64,000 bases of DNA from positions 1 through 64,000 of the forward strand of contig JBBJNV010000023.1 of assembly GCA_037721215.1 (NCBI GenBank), given 5' to 3'. Positions within the stretch are counted from its first letter, which is position 1, and each line of letters begins with the position of its first letter. The stretch is from Gemmatimonadaceae bacterium (lineage in GTDB: Bacteria > Gemmatimonadota > Gemmatimonadetes > Gemmatimonadales > Gemmatimonadaceae). Shown here in pieces: positions 39,164 through 45,230 of the stretch. Made by a program: the position numbers and the translations under genes. A model generated the notes under the pieces. The model was given only the letters and a program-made list of their open reading frames with translations. It was not told the DNA's origin and ran no database searches.

Positions 39164-40318
39164 ATGTGCGCATTCGGGCGTTTCAGTGCGCGGCTCTGGG
39201 TGCCGCTGCTCCTTAGCGGCATCGTGACGCCGGTTCCCCGCGCGATAGCCCAGCCGTCGGGTACCGTGAGCGGCATTGTGCTGGACGTATCTGACAACCC
39301 CGTTTCCGGGGCCAGGGTTTCGCTTGGCGGCACCCAGCTGGCAACCGTGAGTGATGAGCGCGGCGCATTTCGAATAACGGGCGTCACTCTGGGCCCAGTC
39401 GAAATCCTCGCGCGCCGCCTGGGCTTCGCACCAGTGGCGCAAAAGGCGACCGTTACGTCGCAGGAAGCATCCGGGCGTATTCAATTCAGAATGTCAGCAT
39501 TGCCCAATACCATGAGCCCGGTGGTAGTGCAGGCAAGCCGCGTGAAGTACACCGGCCGGCTGGCCGGATACTATGAGCGACTTCGGCGGCGCTCCGGCGG
39601 CTACTTCATCGCCCGCGATGAGATTGACAGAAAGAGCTACCGAACGCTCAGCCAGCTCCTGGCGCAGACTCCGGGGGTAAACGCAATGCGGAGCCCCACC
39701 GGCCTCGGCGCTGTCCGGATGCGGGGCAGGGCTTGCCGCCCCCTCGTATGGCTGGATGGCACTGCGATGCCCGCGGGCGAAGTGGATCTCGATGCATTTT
39801 CAGCGAGCACGTTACACGGCATCGAGATGTATCTGGGCTCTACAAACGCACCGATCGACTACACCGGTCCGCAGGGAATGTCCAGCTGCGGAACGATTCT
39901 GCTCTGGTCGAGGGGCAGGGATACCGAGCCCAGGAGAAGTGCCACGCGGTCAGACGTCGACCTTGAAAAGCTGGTGAGTGCTCTATCGGTCTATACGCCC
40001 GACCAGGTAGACAGGCCGGCGGCGCTGGCTGGATCTCCGCCGCTTGTCGTGGCGCATCCTCCAGCTCTTTTTGCAAGTGGGACCGGGGGAAACGTCGTGG
40101 CGGAATTCGTCGTCGATTCTGTGGGACGCATCGAAAATGGGACTTTAGCAATAGTTTCTTCGGCGCATCCGTTGTTCAGCGAGGCAGTGATTCAAGGTCT
40201 GGAACGTGCCGTGTATGCTCCGGCACTCAAGAATGGCAAGCCTGTGCGTCAGGTAGTCTACCAGTCATTTTCTTTCCCGGCCGCGCCTGGAAAGTCGGGG
40301 AAAAACGGCGGGAGCTGA
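39164..40318 (+). CDS. Three-domain envelope protein: carboxypeptidase-regulatory, plug-like and TonB C-terminal domains
   Basis: From ATG 39164 the protein has 384 residues. A signal peptide ends near RAIAQ (residue 30). Residues 33-110 are a carboxypeptidase-regulatory-like beta-sandwich (GTVSGIVLDVSDNPVSGARV). Residues ~150-250 resemble a TonB-receptor plug (YRTLSQLLAQTPGVNAMRSP, CRPLVWLDG, LHGIEMYLGS, SSCGTILLWSRG) with Cys191 and Cys242 placed to bridge. No barrel follows. Instead residues ~308-372 match a TonB C-terminal domain (GGNVVAEFVVDSVGRIENGT, then AVIQGLERAVYAPALKNGKP). The domain mix suggests a periplasmic or outer-membrane adaptor that presents TonB-type contacts. It is separated from the aminopeptidase by a hairpin. 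Confidence 0.82.
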   Translation: MCAFGRFSARLWVPLLLSGIVTPVPRAIAQPSGTVSGIVLDVSDNPVSGARVSLGGTQLATVSDERGAFRITGVTLGPVEILARRLGFAPVAQKATVTSQEASGRIQFRMSALPNTMSPVVVQASRVKYTGRLAGYYERLRRRSGGYFIARDEIDRKSYRTLSQLLAQTPGVNAMRSPTGLGAVRMRGRACRPLVWLDGTAMPAGEVDLDAFSASTLHGIEMYLGSTNAPIDYTGPQGMSSCGTILLWSRGRDTEPRRSATRSDVDLEKLVSALSVYTPDQVDRPAALAGSPPLVVAHPPALFASGTGGNVVAEFVVDSVGRIENGTLAIVSSAHPLFSEAVIQGLERAVYAPALKNGKPVRQVVYQSFSFPAAPGKSGKNGGS

Positions 40319-40555: not shown

Positions 40556-40582
40556 CATTTGAACAGGAAAGGAGAGAATGGT

Positions 40583-43500
40583 ATGACCAGATTAGTCAGA
40601 ATTGCCATGGCTTTGGTTGCCATGGCGCTGCCCGTTGGGCTTTCTGCTCAGGGCGGCGGTACGATCACCGGTCAGGTATTGGATGCATCCAATCAGCGCC
40701 CGGTGCAGGAAGCACAGGTGTTTGTAGTCGGCACCCAGCGCGGCGCCTCGACCGATCAGCAGGGCCGGTATTCGATTACGAATGTGCCAGCCGGGTCGTA
40801 CGAGGTTCGCGCGCGTAGAGTCGGATACGCGCCCGGCCTGCAGCGCGTAACTGTCGGTGCGGGCGTCAGTGCAGCCGCGAATTTCGCGCTTGCGACGTCG
40901 GCGGCGCAGCTCGAGGAAGTTGTCGTCAACGCTGTTACCGGTCAGGTACAGCGACGCGTTGAAGTTGGCACCAACACCGGTTACATCGACGTCGCGGCTC
41001 TGCCCAAGGGCCCCATCACCAAGATGGCAGACGTACTCCAGGGCCGTGTGGCTGGCGTGAATCTGCAATCGGCCGCAGGCGCGACAGGCTCGTCGCAGCG
41101 CGTCCGGATTCGCGGTGCCAACAGTCTTTCGCTTTCGAACGAACCTCTTCTCTATGTTGACGGGATTCTGGTCTCGAACAGCAAGGGCGGAATTGGTCTT
41201 GGCGGGCAGGATTACTCGAGACTGAATGACATCAACCCGGAAGAGATCGAGAACATCGAGATCCTCAAGGGCCCAGCGGCGTCCGCCATTTATGGCAGCG
41301 CGGCCTCGGTCGGAGTCATCCTGATCTCGACCAAGCGCGGGCGGGCAGGCAAGCCCGTGTGGCGCGGCTACGTCGAAGGCGGACGCCTGGAAGACAAGAA
41401 TGACTATCCGTCCAACTACATAGCGCTCTCGCGGCTAGGCCAGGGAGACGTGTATGACATAGAGCAGGGCGGAGTTCTCAACACCAGAAACCTCTTCGGA
41501 GGTACTACCCGGCCTTATCAGCAGTGCCCAAATTTTTTGGCGGCGCTTGCCTCTGGAACGCCCGGTGCTTGCGTTCAGGACACGGTTCTTTCTTTCAATC
41601 AGCTGGAAGACTCTCGTACGACGCCGTTCCAGAACGGACAGCGGGGCAAAGTGGGCTTGAGCATCTCGGGCGGCAGCGAAGCTCTTACGTTCTTCATCTC
41701 CGGCGACCAGGAACGCGAGAATGGAGTACTTCGGCCGAACGACCTTGAGCGCGTAAGCTTTCGTACCAATCTCAACGCTCGTATTGGCAGCAAGGCGAAT
41801 GCAGCTATTACTGCGGCCTACATCACCAGCGACTCCGACCGGTTCTCAGGTGATAACAATATCTTCAGTCCGCTCATCAACGGATTCCTGGGTACTGCGC
41901 AGTATCTGCCGGGAATGGAGTCGGACACTGTATCCAAACCCGGTTCACGGCTCGGATCCTATTTCGGGTACAACACGGCTGACCAGCGTCTGACGGTCTC
42001 GAGCCAGTCAGTCGACCGCTACATAGTCGGTGCTAACACGCAGTACAACCCATTGTCCTGGCTGCGGCTGAATGGAAACGTCGGCGTTGACTACTTCGGA
42101 CGCTACGACAGACAGACTTTGGATCCAAACATTCTTCCGCTCGCACTCGACTATGTTCGCGGTTTCCGTGATGGAAATCGGTCACGCAGCTATCAGTACA
42201 CGTCGAATGCTTCCGGAACGGCTACCTTCTCTCTCACGCCAAGCCTGGTTTCCAATACGACTGGTGGAGTGAGCTATCTCAGGACGCTGTTCGAGAGCAT
42301 CGGTTGCTACGGCATCGGCATTCCAGCGGGCACCGAGTCATGCTCTGCAGCAACGAGTCAGTTTTCTGTCAGCGAAGGCTATTCGGACGCGAAGACCTTC
42401 GGCTTGTTCGGCCGCCAGGAATTGGCGTTTGCCGATCGCTTTTTTGTGGCCGGAACACTTCGCGCTGATAACAACAGCGGATTGATCAGGGAAGTGTCAG
42501 GTCTGGCGGTATATCCATCGCTTAACGCTTCCTGGGTCCTTTCAAAGGAGCCGTTTTTCCCGACGATTGGATTCCTCAGTCAGCTGCGTCTTCGCGCCGG
42601 CTACGGGCAGGCTGGTCAACGTCCGGGCTTCGGCGATGCGGAAACGTTTTTTGCATCCCGTGCAGTGCAGATTGGCGGCGCTGAATTGCCAGCGCTCATT
42701 CTTACCAGAACAGGCAACTCGGCGCTGAAGGTCGAAAGAACCACTGAGATCGAGGGTGGATTCGATGCTTCTTTCTTCAGTGATCGCTTCTCGACAGAGT
42801 TTACGGCCTTTACGCGTCGCTCTGTGGATGCGCTTATTTCGCGCAACCTTGCACCATCTTCCGGACTCACCGGCGCGGTGTTTCAGAATATCGGCAGCAT
42901 CCGGAACTGGGGTACCGAAACGGCGTTGCGCGCCAATCTGGTAGATGCAAGCAAGTTTCGCTTCGACGCCCGCTTGACGGCGACGACTCTGCGCAACCGC
43001 ATTGAAGATCTTGCCCTGGATAGCGCAGTAGCGCCGATTCAGTTCAACCGTGGAGCCCAGGCTCATCGTCAGGACTTCCCGACCGGCGCATTCTTCGCCC
43101 GGCCAATCAAATACGACGATGCCGACAAGAACGGTAAGCTGTCCCGGGCCGAGGTTACTGTAGACACGTCGAAGTTTCTGGCGGTCCGTAATATCAAGGG
43201 CGGTCTTGACACCCTGAATGTGGCTTATGTAGGACCCGCACTTCCCACGAATACCCAAGGTCTTTCTGGTGACGTGACGCTGTTTGGCGCCTTCACAATT
43301 TCTGCGCTATTCGAGCGTCGGGCGGGTAACAAGCAGTTGAATTTCACGGAGTTCTTCCGTTGCCGGACGCAGGGGCCGACCGCAATCTACAGTCAGTGTG
43401 GTGCGCTGTCGAATCCCAATGCTTCTCTGGAGTCGCAGGCGGCGTATATCGGGGCTCAATTCCTGTCCGCAACGCCTTTCGGCTACATCGAAGATGCTGA

Positions 43501-43744
43501 CTTCATCAAATGGCGTGAATTGTCCGTTCGTGTCGGGGTACCAGAGTCGATTTCGAGCAAGTTCAGCGCGCTCGAGGGTGCGGCAATTTCACTCTCGGGT
43601 CGTAATCTCAAGACCTGGACCGATTACTCTGGTATCGATCCGGAGATCAATGAAGGTGGTGGCAGCTCGAATTTCGGTCAGGGCGAATTCAACACCCAGC
43701 CCCCGGTCCGGACCTTCACTCTTCGTTTCGACTTCAAACTTTAA
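40583..43744 (+). CDS. SusC/RagA-family TonB-dependent outer-membrane receptor 4
   Basis: A 1053-residue receptor starting at ATG 40583, 6 nt after a strong ribosome site (AAAGGAGAG). A TTG 24 nt upstream is rejected. The signal peptide ends near VGLSAQ (residue 23). Domains: carboxypeptidase-regulatory-like (~27-105, GTITGQVLDASNQRPVQEAQ), plug (~125-260; VRIRGANSLSLSNEPLLYVD, EIENIEILKGPAASAIYGSA and VGVILISTKRGRAGK), then barrel. The last residues are LRFDFKL, ending in Leu rather than the usual Phe. Overall it is most like receptor 1. The SusD partner begins 19 nt after the stop. A candidate promoter with palindrome and a leader hairpin lie upstream. Confidence 0.95.
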   Translation: MTRLVRIAMALVAMALPVGLSAQGGGTITGQVLDASNQRPVQEAQVFVVGTQRGASTDQQGRYSITNVPAGSYEVRARRVGYAPGLQRVTVGAGVSAAANFALATSAAQLEEVVVNAVTGQVQRRVEVGTNTGYIDVAALPKGPITKMADVLQGRVAGVNLQSAAGATGSSQRVRIRGANSLSLSNEPLLYVDGILVSNSKGGIGLGGQDYSRLNDINPEEIENIEILKGPAASAIYGSAASVGVILISTKRGRAGKPVWRGYVEGGRLEDKNDYPSNYIALSRLGQGDVYDIEQGGVLNTRNLFGGTTRPYQQCPNFLAALASGTPGACVQDTVLSFNQLEDSRTTPFQNGQRGKVGLSISGGSEALTFFISGDQERENGVLRPNDLERVSFRTNLNARIGSKANAAITAAYITSDSDRFSGDNNIFSPLINGFLGTAQYLPGMESDTVSKPGSRLGSYFGYNTADQRLTVSSQSVDRYIVGANTQYNPLSWLRLNGNVGVDYFGRYDRQTLDPNILPLALDYVRGFRDGNRSRSYQYTSNASGTATFSLTPSLVSNTTGGVSYLRTLFESIGCYGIGIPAGTESCSAATSQFSVSEGYSDAKTFGLFGRQELAFADRFFVAGTLRADNNSGLIREVSGLAVYPSLNASWVLSKEPFFPTIGFLSQLRLRAGYGQAGQRPGFGDAETFFASRAVQIGGAELPALILTRTGNSALKVERTTEIEGGFDASFFSDRFSTEFTAFTRRSVDALISRNLAPSSGLTGAVFQNIGSIRNWGTETALRANLVDASKFRFDARLTATTLRNRIEDLALDSAVAPIQFNRGAQAHRQDFPTGAFFARPIKYDDADKNGKLSRAEVTVDTSKFLAVRNIKGGLDTLNVAYVGPALPTNTQGLSGDVTLFGAFTISALFERRAGNKQLNFTEFFRCRTQGPTAIYSQCGALSNPNASLESQAAYIGAQFLSATPFGYIEDADFIKWRELSVRVGVPESISSKFSALEGAAISLSGRNLKTWTDYSGIDPEINEGGGSSNFGQGEFNTQPPVRTFTLRFDFKL

Positions 43745-43763
43745 ATCGACGGATTATTTACCC

Positions 43764-45230
43764 ATGAAAATTTTATCCACAGGGAAGGGTCTTCGGACCC
43801 TTCCCAGGCTAGTGCTGGCAACGGTGCTGGCGCTCTCAGCCGGGGCTTGTGACACTGACAAGATCGTAGAAGTCGAAGACCCCGCAGCGCGCCGGCCTGA
43901 GGAGATTAACAACACCGGTTCAGTACCGGCGTTAGTGAACGGCGCCTTGCGTCAGTTCATTGGCGGTTACAGCGGGTTTGGCGGCGACTCGTTTCTTTCT
44001 TCCTCAGGCGTCATTTCGGATGAATTGTACTACGGAGATACCTTCACTACCCGAGATGCGGCGGATAAGCGCACGCTGCAGCCCGCAGTGCTTGGCAACA
44101 TTTCGGACGGGTCGTTTGGTTTGCTGCAGCAGGCCCGTTTCAACGCGCGCCGGGCGTTTGCAACTGTTGCCCAGTTTTCAACACCAGCCACAGCAGCTGC
44201 AGACGGGACCACGCAGGCGCAACTCCGTACGATTGAAGGTTACGTTTACGTAACCCTCAGCGAAGGATGGTGCGGTTCGGTTCCCTTCAGCGTTGTGCCC
44301 GACACCGGTGTGGTTGACGCTAGCCGCATTACCAACGGTGTTCCGCTTAGCACTGCGGGCATGAACGATACCGCTGTTACGCGCTTCAATCAGGCGTTAG
44401 CCCTCAATTCGTCCAACGCTCTGGCGGCTGTTGGAAAGGCCAGAGCGTTGTTGAATCTTGGCCGGTTCGCCGAGGCGGCAGCAGCCGTGCAGAGTGTGCC
44501 AACGTCGTACGTTTTTCTGCTCGAGCACTCTATCAACACTCCGGCCGAAAACAATCCGATCAGGGCGTTGATCGACAATGGCCGTTACAGCGTGTCGAAT
44601 CTCGAAGGTGCGGTTATCAGCACCACCAGTACGCGTCCAGATGCTACAGCTCCTGCTACCACGGCTCCTGGTGCCGAAGGAATCGCTTTCCGCGGTCTTC
44701 GCGACCCCAGAGTACCCTGGGAGTTCAAGGGCAGATGTTTTAGCGCAGTCAATTGTTTTTTCAACAACAATTATTCCACTCTCGATGCCGATGTGCCCCT
44801 GGCTTCGGGAGTCGAGGCGCGCCTGATCGAAGCCGAGGCGGCGCTGCGTGCGGGAAATACTGCTTTGATGCTCAGTACACTGAATACACTGCGGGCAAAC
44901 GTCACACAGATCGTCCAGGTACTCTATCCCGGTCAGAAAGCCGTGCAGAATCCGACGGGACTGCAGCCGCTTATTGATCCCGGAACTCCAGACACTCGCC
45001 GCGCTCTGTTTTTTCAGGAACGCGCATTGTGGTTGTTCAACACTGGACACCGTCAAGGCGACCTGCGCCGGCTCGTGCGTCAGTACGGAGTTCCGTCAAA
45101 TGTTGCATTTCCGAGTGGCACGCATTTCCGCGGTGGCACATTCGGAAACGACGTTGCGTATCCCGTGCCTTTCAACGAGGAAAACAACAGGGAGTTCAAT
45201 CGCGCGGCCTGTGTGACTACGGCGGCGTAG
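43764..45230 (+). CDS. SusD/RagB-family outer-membrane lipoprotein 4
   Basis: A 488-residue lipoprotein. The frame is open upstream through the SusC 4 end, but the signal peptide begins at ATG 43764 and ends at lipobox SAGAC (Cys29). The mature N-terminus reads DTDKIVEVEDPAARRPEEIN. Helical elements are FGLLQQARFNARRAFATVAQ and LRTIEGYVYVTLSEGWCGSV. The region ASGVEARLIEAEAALRAGNT and the block FQERALWLFNTGHRQGDLRR are strikingly close to SusD 1. The ending is YPVPFNEENNREFN. This agrees with receptors 1 and 4 being the most similar pair. A terminator follows at 45258. Confidence 0.94.
   Translation: MKILSTGKGLRTLPRLVLATVLALSAGACDTDKIVEVEDPAARRPEEINNTGSVPALVNGALRQFIGGYSGFGGDSFLSSSGVISDELYYGDTFTTRDAADKRTLQPAVLGNISDGSFGLLQQARFNARRAFATVAQFSTPATAAADGTTQAQLRTIEGYVYVTLSEGWCGSVPFSVVPDTGVVDASRITNGVPLSTAGMNDTAVTRFNQALALNSSNALAAVGKARALLNLGRFAEAAAAVQSVPTSYVFLLEHSINTPAENNPIRALIDNGRYSVSNLEGAVISTTSTRPDATAPATTAPGAEGIAFRGLRDPRVPWEFKGRCFSAVNCFFNNNYSTLDADVPLASGVEARLIEAEAALRAGNTALMLSTLNTLRANVTQIVQVLYPGQKAVQNPTGLQPLIDPGTPDTRRALFFQERALWLFNTGHRQGDLRRLVRQYGVPSNVAFPSGTHFRGGTFGNDVAYPVPFNEENNREFNRAACVTTAA

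Follow-up and report, generated by a model that had tools for sequence, protein, structure and literature searches.

An open reading frame in a 64,000-nucleotide stretch of a Gemmatimonadaceae genome (contig JBBJNV010000023.1, positions 1 to 64,000, referred to here as the window) raises the question of what a bacterium might do with an exported protein that carries the plug of a TonB-dependent receptor, no barrel behind it, and the C-terminal domain of TonB in a single chain. How a small number of TonB molecules serves many receptors is a long-standing question, and this protein has domains from both sides of that interaction. The gene (39164-40318; this and all other features of the window described here were on the + strand) was an uninterrupted frame of 384 amino acids encoding a signal peptide, a carboxypeptidase-regulatory (CPD) or NTE-like domain, a barrel-less plug, a linker, and a TonB_C domain. 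Pfam assigned CarboxypepD_reg to residues 34-110 (2.7e-13), Plug to residues 149-229 (1.5e-8), and TonB_C to residues 301-371 (1.5e-8), each exceeding its curated cut-off, and all three domains were present in 24 of 24 relatives.

The protein began with a cleavable-looking Sec-type signal peptide (residues 1-29, 39164-39250), recognized from the sequence, its hydropathy, and the conservation of Gln30, which was kept in at least 90% of the family. The peptide ended in AIA, with probable cleavage before Gln30, and lacked a lipobox; its assignment as an export signal was made by eye. The CPD/NTE-like domain (residues 34-122, 39263-39529) was followed by a degenerate strand resembling a Ton box (MSPVVVQA, residues 117-124, 39512-39535), found by alignment with LEEVVVNA of the SusC encoded downstream. 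A proline replaced the acidic residue in this strand, for which the family consensus was LxPVxV. The plug covered about residues 146-252 (39599-39919), and TonB_C, together with the strand preceding it (VYTPDQVDRPA), about residues 277-373 (39992-40282). Pfam detected no barrel family in the protein, and the 132 residues past the plug were mostly TonB_C. Hydropathy indicated no membrane segment after the signal peptide, and a proline-rich linker was absent from the sequence. A sequence-only reading of the window had proposed these three domains in one exported protein, with no barrel behind the plug and no membrane anchor besides the signal peptide, and the Pfam and hydropathy results agree with it on each point.

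That reading had also placed a plug-like fold at residues 150-250 and a TonB_C-like fold at residues 308-372, and both assignments held up in profile and structure comparisons. A family profile built from 24 members matched, among proteins in the PDB, solved SusC structures (about residues 19-230), the plugs of BtuB and Cir (about 151-228), and solved TonB C-terminal domains (about 295-376). A whole-protein AlphaFold2 model from a shallow six-row alignment gave good confidence for the N-terminal domain and for TonB_C, which was modeled as beta-beta-alpha-beta, and weak confidence for the plug (pLDDT about 44-61). In a Foldseek search, the N-terminal domain matched 9hfj, the structure of a SusC NTE (TMt 0.80). 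When the plug was modeled alone, again from a shallow alignment, the mean pLDDT was 61, and the 50 best PDB matches were filled by TonB-dependent receptors, with BtuB and CirA leading (TMq 0.60 and rmsd 2.7 for CirA). The predicted plug fold is therefore a model of moderate confidence, yet the sequence profile and the fold search concur on it. Fold searches back the CPD/NTE and plug domains, and profile searches back TonB_C.

The distribution of the fusion was surveyed in 297 genomes of the phylum, 105 from the family of the window (Gemmatimonadaceae) and 192 from other families. The search of the phylum for the same architecture, suggested at the outset, showed that it recurs: the full-length three-domain fusion was found in 57 of the 105 family genomes, one of which (G203) holds an incomplete match, and in none of the 192 others among the matches listed. 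In 80 genomes drawn from other families, a profile bridging the last part of the plug and TonB_C gave no junction-spanning match among those listed, where TonB_C alignments began at model position 21 or later and never at the plug end. No relatives were found in viral contigs. Plasmids yielded only partial matches, from Gemmatirosa and Persicobacter, and the match in one family member (G033) shared coordinates with one on Gemmatirosa kalamazoonensis plasmid NZ_CP007129.1. A single scan of genome contigs, in which sampling outside the phylum was poor, returned one Spirosoma TonB_C protein. Two irregular loci were observed within the survey. In genome G010, which is additional to the 57, the fusion gene on contig C238 (L029, L067) was broken into two by a frameshift close to residue 242, and in G032 a 252-aa frame resembling the fusion's cluster (L059, 7370-8128 or so) lay immediately upstream of the fusion and overlapped its open frame.

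The N-terminal part of the protein was 37% identical to the adjacent SusC over residues 15-135, as might be expected of a decaying receptor fragment or an assembly artefact. This origin is contradicted by the occurrence of the fusion in 57 of the 105 family genomes, by a tree in which the plug family to which it belongs was split from the plugs of the window's four SusC proteins at 100/100 support, and by the substitution pattern. Over ten pairs of relatives, in several of which dS was saturated, dN/dS was 0.05-0.47 for the plug, 0.10-0.38 for the TonB tail, and 0.10-0.69 for CPD. In other words, purifying selection maintains all domains of the fusion, with CPD the most relaxed. Since the frame was also conserved in 24 of 24 relatives, the gene is neither a frameshift product nor an artefact peculiar to one strain. 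With the plug and TonB_C assignments upheld as well, none of the three outcomes named beforehand as undoing the sequence-only reading came about. Decay or misassembly can be considered vanishingly improbable, and the artefact or pseudogene interpretation was rejected on distribution, domain conservation, tree, and selection together.

Analysis of the other TonB_C proteins in the source genome, of which there were six including the fusion, indicated how the tail relates to the Ton system of the cell. One canonical TonB (contig C14) had a membrane anchor and a proline-rich linker and was followed by exbB and exbD, and a second TonB was also encoded. No exbB or exbD was present beside the fusion gene among the neighbours scanned. 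The fusion tail aligned with both TonBs from the preceding strand through the end of the domain at about 29-31% identity, and it retained the beta3 strand of the canonical proteins (VRQVVYQSFSF vs VKQLVQQSFQF); their YP motif was kept in the fusion family. Because canonical TonBs are encoded elsewhere in the genome, one of them with exbB and exbD, the fusion is not the energiser, and it adds to the energy transducer rather than replacing it. TonB_C was also found in other proteins that are not canonical TonBs. A small lipoprotein of the same genome (L101, G000 contig C18:81427-81657) consisted mainly of TonB_C and had no inner-membrane helix, and an exported Spirosoma protein (L047:291-1748) had TonB_C-like stretches at both ends and no membrane anchor.

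The plug proved to be part of a much wider group. A profile of the plug segment identified four such proteins in the source genome, three of them without TonB_C, and the gap to the next match was wide (5e-26 vs 1e-6). Across the 23 genomes searched there were 0 to 26 matches per genome, the weakest of which may be ordinary receptors, and the other class of the phylum was nearly empty of them. The chains of stand-alone plug proteins ended 0-5 residues past the last plug strand, and all four of those tested cleared the Pfam Plug cut-off. The fusion shared the marks of this family, namely both of the cysteines discussed below, the motif GFxxRR..G.G.F.TR, and a W[ST][RK] end. The fusion thus belongs to a broader family of plugs found across the class, barrel-less and cysteine-paired, most members of which lack TonB_C. 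In the tree the fusions formed one cluster, broken only by a stand-alone protein on a long branch, which makes it likely that the fusion arose once.

The mature chain contained just two cysteines, Cys191 (39734-39736) and Cys242 (39887-39889), the latter opening the last plug strand (CGTILLWSR). Of 57 distinct plugs compared, 54 had both cysteines, 3 had neither, and none had only one, a count biased by a search pattern in which the second position had to be C or G. Three more proteins that failed this pattern had both cysteines, bringing the overall count to 57 with both, 0 with one, and 3 with none. The cysteine-free plugs belonged to one clade of fusions (L033, L076, and L079, from genomes G046, G188, and G277), in which the rest of the protein was kept. 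Seventeen plugs of neighbouring receptors could be delimited in these loci, and none had a cysteine pair at the two positions of the family: 15 were without cysteine, and 2 had a pair elsewhere. That the two cysteines are kept or lost together fits a disulphide and favours the Cys191-Cys242 bridge thought likely from the sequence. The idea matters because the isolated plug of FepA behaves as unfolded (PMC11658791). For the same reason, a disulphide staple taking the place of the barrel is a reasonable reading of the pair, which would keep the plug folded, and the coupled cysteines suggest a natural means by which this might be done.

The breadth of the family supports the chief rival to a role in SusC/SusD systems: that the cysteine-paired plug and CPD form a general exported module for binding ligands or surfaces, with no part in gating, and that TonB_C serves to tether or dimerise it through peptidoglycan, TonB, or itself. 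The plugs are class-wide, occur in several copies in most of the genomes searched, and mostly lack TonB_C. Some members have two or three CPD domains. One cysteine-paired plug protein, from a genome of another bacterial family (L136, genome G065), carries a 157-residue tail with a terminal aromatic residue that resembles a small outer-membrane barrel and not TonB_C, and Pfam found only CPD and Plug in it. The anchorless TonB_C lipoprotein L101 in the same genome as the fusion is also in keeping with a tethering role, as is the absence of a SusC directly downstream in about half of the fusion loci. What such a module leaves unexplained is the position of fusions directly upstream of several groups of SusC. 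The general module is, in our estimation, rather unlikely.

In the window, the gene directly downstream of the fusion encoded a SusC-like TonB-dependent receptor with its own CPD and plug (40559-43744), identified by Pfam and as a conserved neighbour. A SusD-like gene followed (43398-45230, a frame over-extended at its 5' end), which was recognized by position and similarity in related loci, Pfam finding TPR repeats only. Thirty-six fusion loci were read, two of which (L149 and L155) ended too near the gene to judge. Among the 34 informative loci, the fusion showed a preference for the position upstream of SusC: in 18 the next gene downstream on that strand encoded a SusC, which a SusD-like gene usually followed, and in 16 no SusC came directly downstream. 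Sorted by best match, the SusC partners belonged to no fewer than four groups. One locus had the order fusion-SusC-SusD-fusion (L153), and another had a tandem pair of fusions ahead of SusC (L148). Because the loci share ancestry, the 18 cases do not count as 18 independent events; linkage to several SusC groups is nevertheless hard to explain by chance. The 16 loci without a SusC directly downstream indicate that the link is not obligatory. Of the two kinds of neighbour to which the sequence-only reading had drawn attention, SusC/SusD genes were a recurrent association and the peptidase was not. A conserved unit with the aminopeptidase PF10023 was rejected, as this gene adjoined the fusion in just two cases, the window and L048, the latter from the same genus.

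Adjacency to SusC, with Ton-pathway domains at both ends of the chain, would also be consistent with a soluble coupler, in which TonB_C pairs with a real TonB while the NTE and plug dock on SusC, aiding the search of TonB for its receptors. The part of soluble coupler or decoy put forward in the sequence-only reading would be compatible with the 18 loci that have a SusC directly downstream and with the constraint on TonB_C. TonB C-terminal domains have been seen in dimeric structures, but the role of TonB dimers in vivo is called a matter of debate (PMC7014051). The partner receptor, moreover, already has its own plug, and docking of an isolated plug on it would be hypothetical. A coupler seems improbable. 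Alternatively, the fusion might stand in as a surrogate plug, closing the wide barrel of SusC when transport displaces the receptor's own plug. The plug fold was confirmed by fold search, and a large channel upon plug removal has been postulated for SusCD (PMC7782687). However, the plug domain of the fusion shares no more than about 20-30% identity with that of its partner, and the partner retains its own plug; a surrogate role appears highly improbable.

The explanation that we tentatively prefer, at somewhat less than even chances, is that the fusion is an exported, soluble, periplasmic accessory of SusC/SusD, made by adding a TonB C-terminal domain to a barrel-less plug protein. A TonB tail would have been joined to a class-wide plug protein that normally ends at the last plug strand. 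TonB binds Ton boxes by pairing through its beta3 strand (PMC7014051), and beta3 of the fusion's TonB_C might pair in this way with the box of its SusC partner or with those of other receptors. From the periplasmic face, the fusion might occlude or meter the access of energised, ExbBD-bound TonB. Without an inner-membrane anchor it is unable to transmit force itself. The signalling domain of FecA blocks TonB from reaching its own TonB box (PMC11658791), and SusC function in Bacteroides needs the NTE and Ton box (PMC7782687). Ton-box binding and regulation by the fusion would be in line with these precedents. The TonB_C domain may bind something besides Ton boxes, such as peptidoglycan or itself. 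Most family members lack TonB_C, and none of those in the source genome was found directly beside a SusC of the type in the window, which suggests that the main role of the plug module may be a different one.

A more specific proposal, that the disulphide-stapled soluble plug with its own TonB domain is a dedicated periplasmic regulator choosing which SusCD engage the Ton motor, is speculative and somewhat unlikely. If true, it would represent a control layer over TonB-dependent uptake not previously described, derived from a lineage-specific fusion on class-wide plugs. Since a soluble protein with a plug and a TonB domain is encoded beside SusCD, Ton-box competition would be directly testable in cultured Gemmatimonadaceae.

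The open-access papers covered by the search contained no description of barrel-less or stand-alone plugs, or of TonB_C fused to a plug or CPD. Individually the parts are familiar; their combination appears to be new, and so does the class-wide family of barrel-less plugs. The fusion shares with SusC/RagA-type receptors a signal peptide, an NTE domain, a strand in the place of the Ton box, and the plug fold, but those receptors have a 22-stranded beta-barrel where the fusion has TonB_C, and the fusion has a cysteine pair in its plug. It resembles TonB in its C-terminal domain, with the preceding strand and beta3, and in the YP motif of its family, while lacking the N-terminal membrane anchor, the proline-rich linker, and an adjoining exbBD. 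Anchorless exported TonB_C proteins such as L101 and the Spirosoma protein L047 likewise carry this domain outside canonical TonB, and they have neither plug nor NTE. The signalling domain of FecA-type receptors is also a periplasmic module able to occlude a Ton box (PMC11658791), but it has another fold, is part of the receptor itself, and works via an anti-sigma factor. MxcH-type receptors (NCBIfam NF038079) also combine TonB_C with receptor domains in one chain, and the TonB_C of the fusion matched MxcH positions 10-86. In MxcH, however, TonB_C stands at the N-terminus of an entire receptor (about 790 aa), whereas the fusion carries it at the C-terminus and has no barrel.
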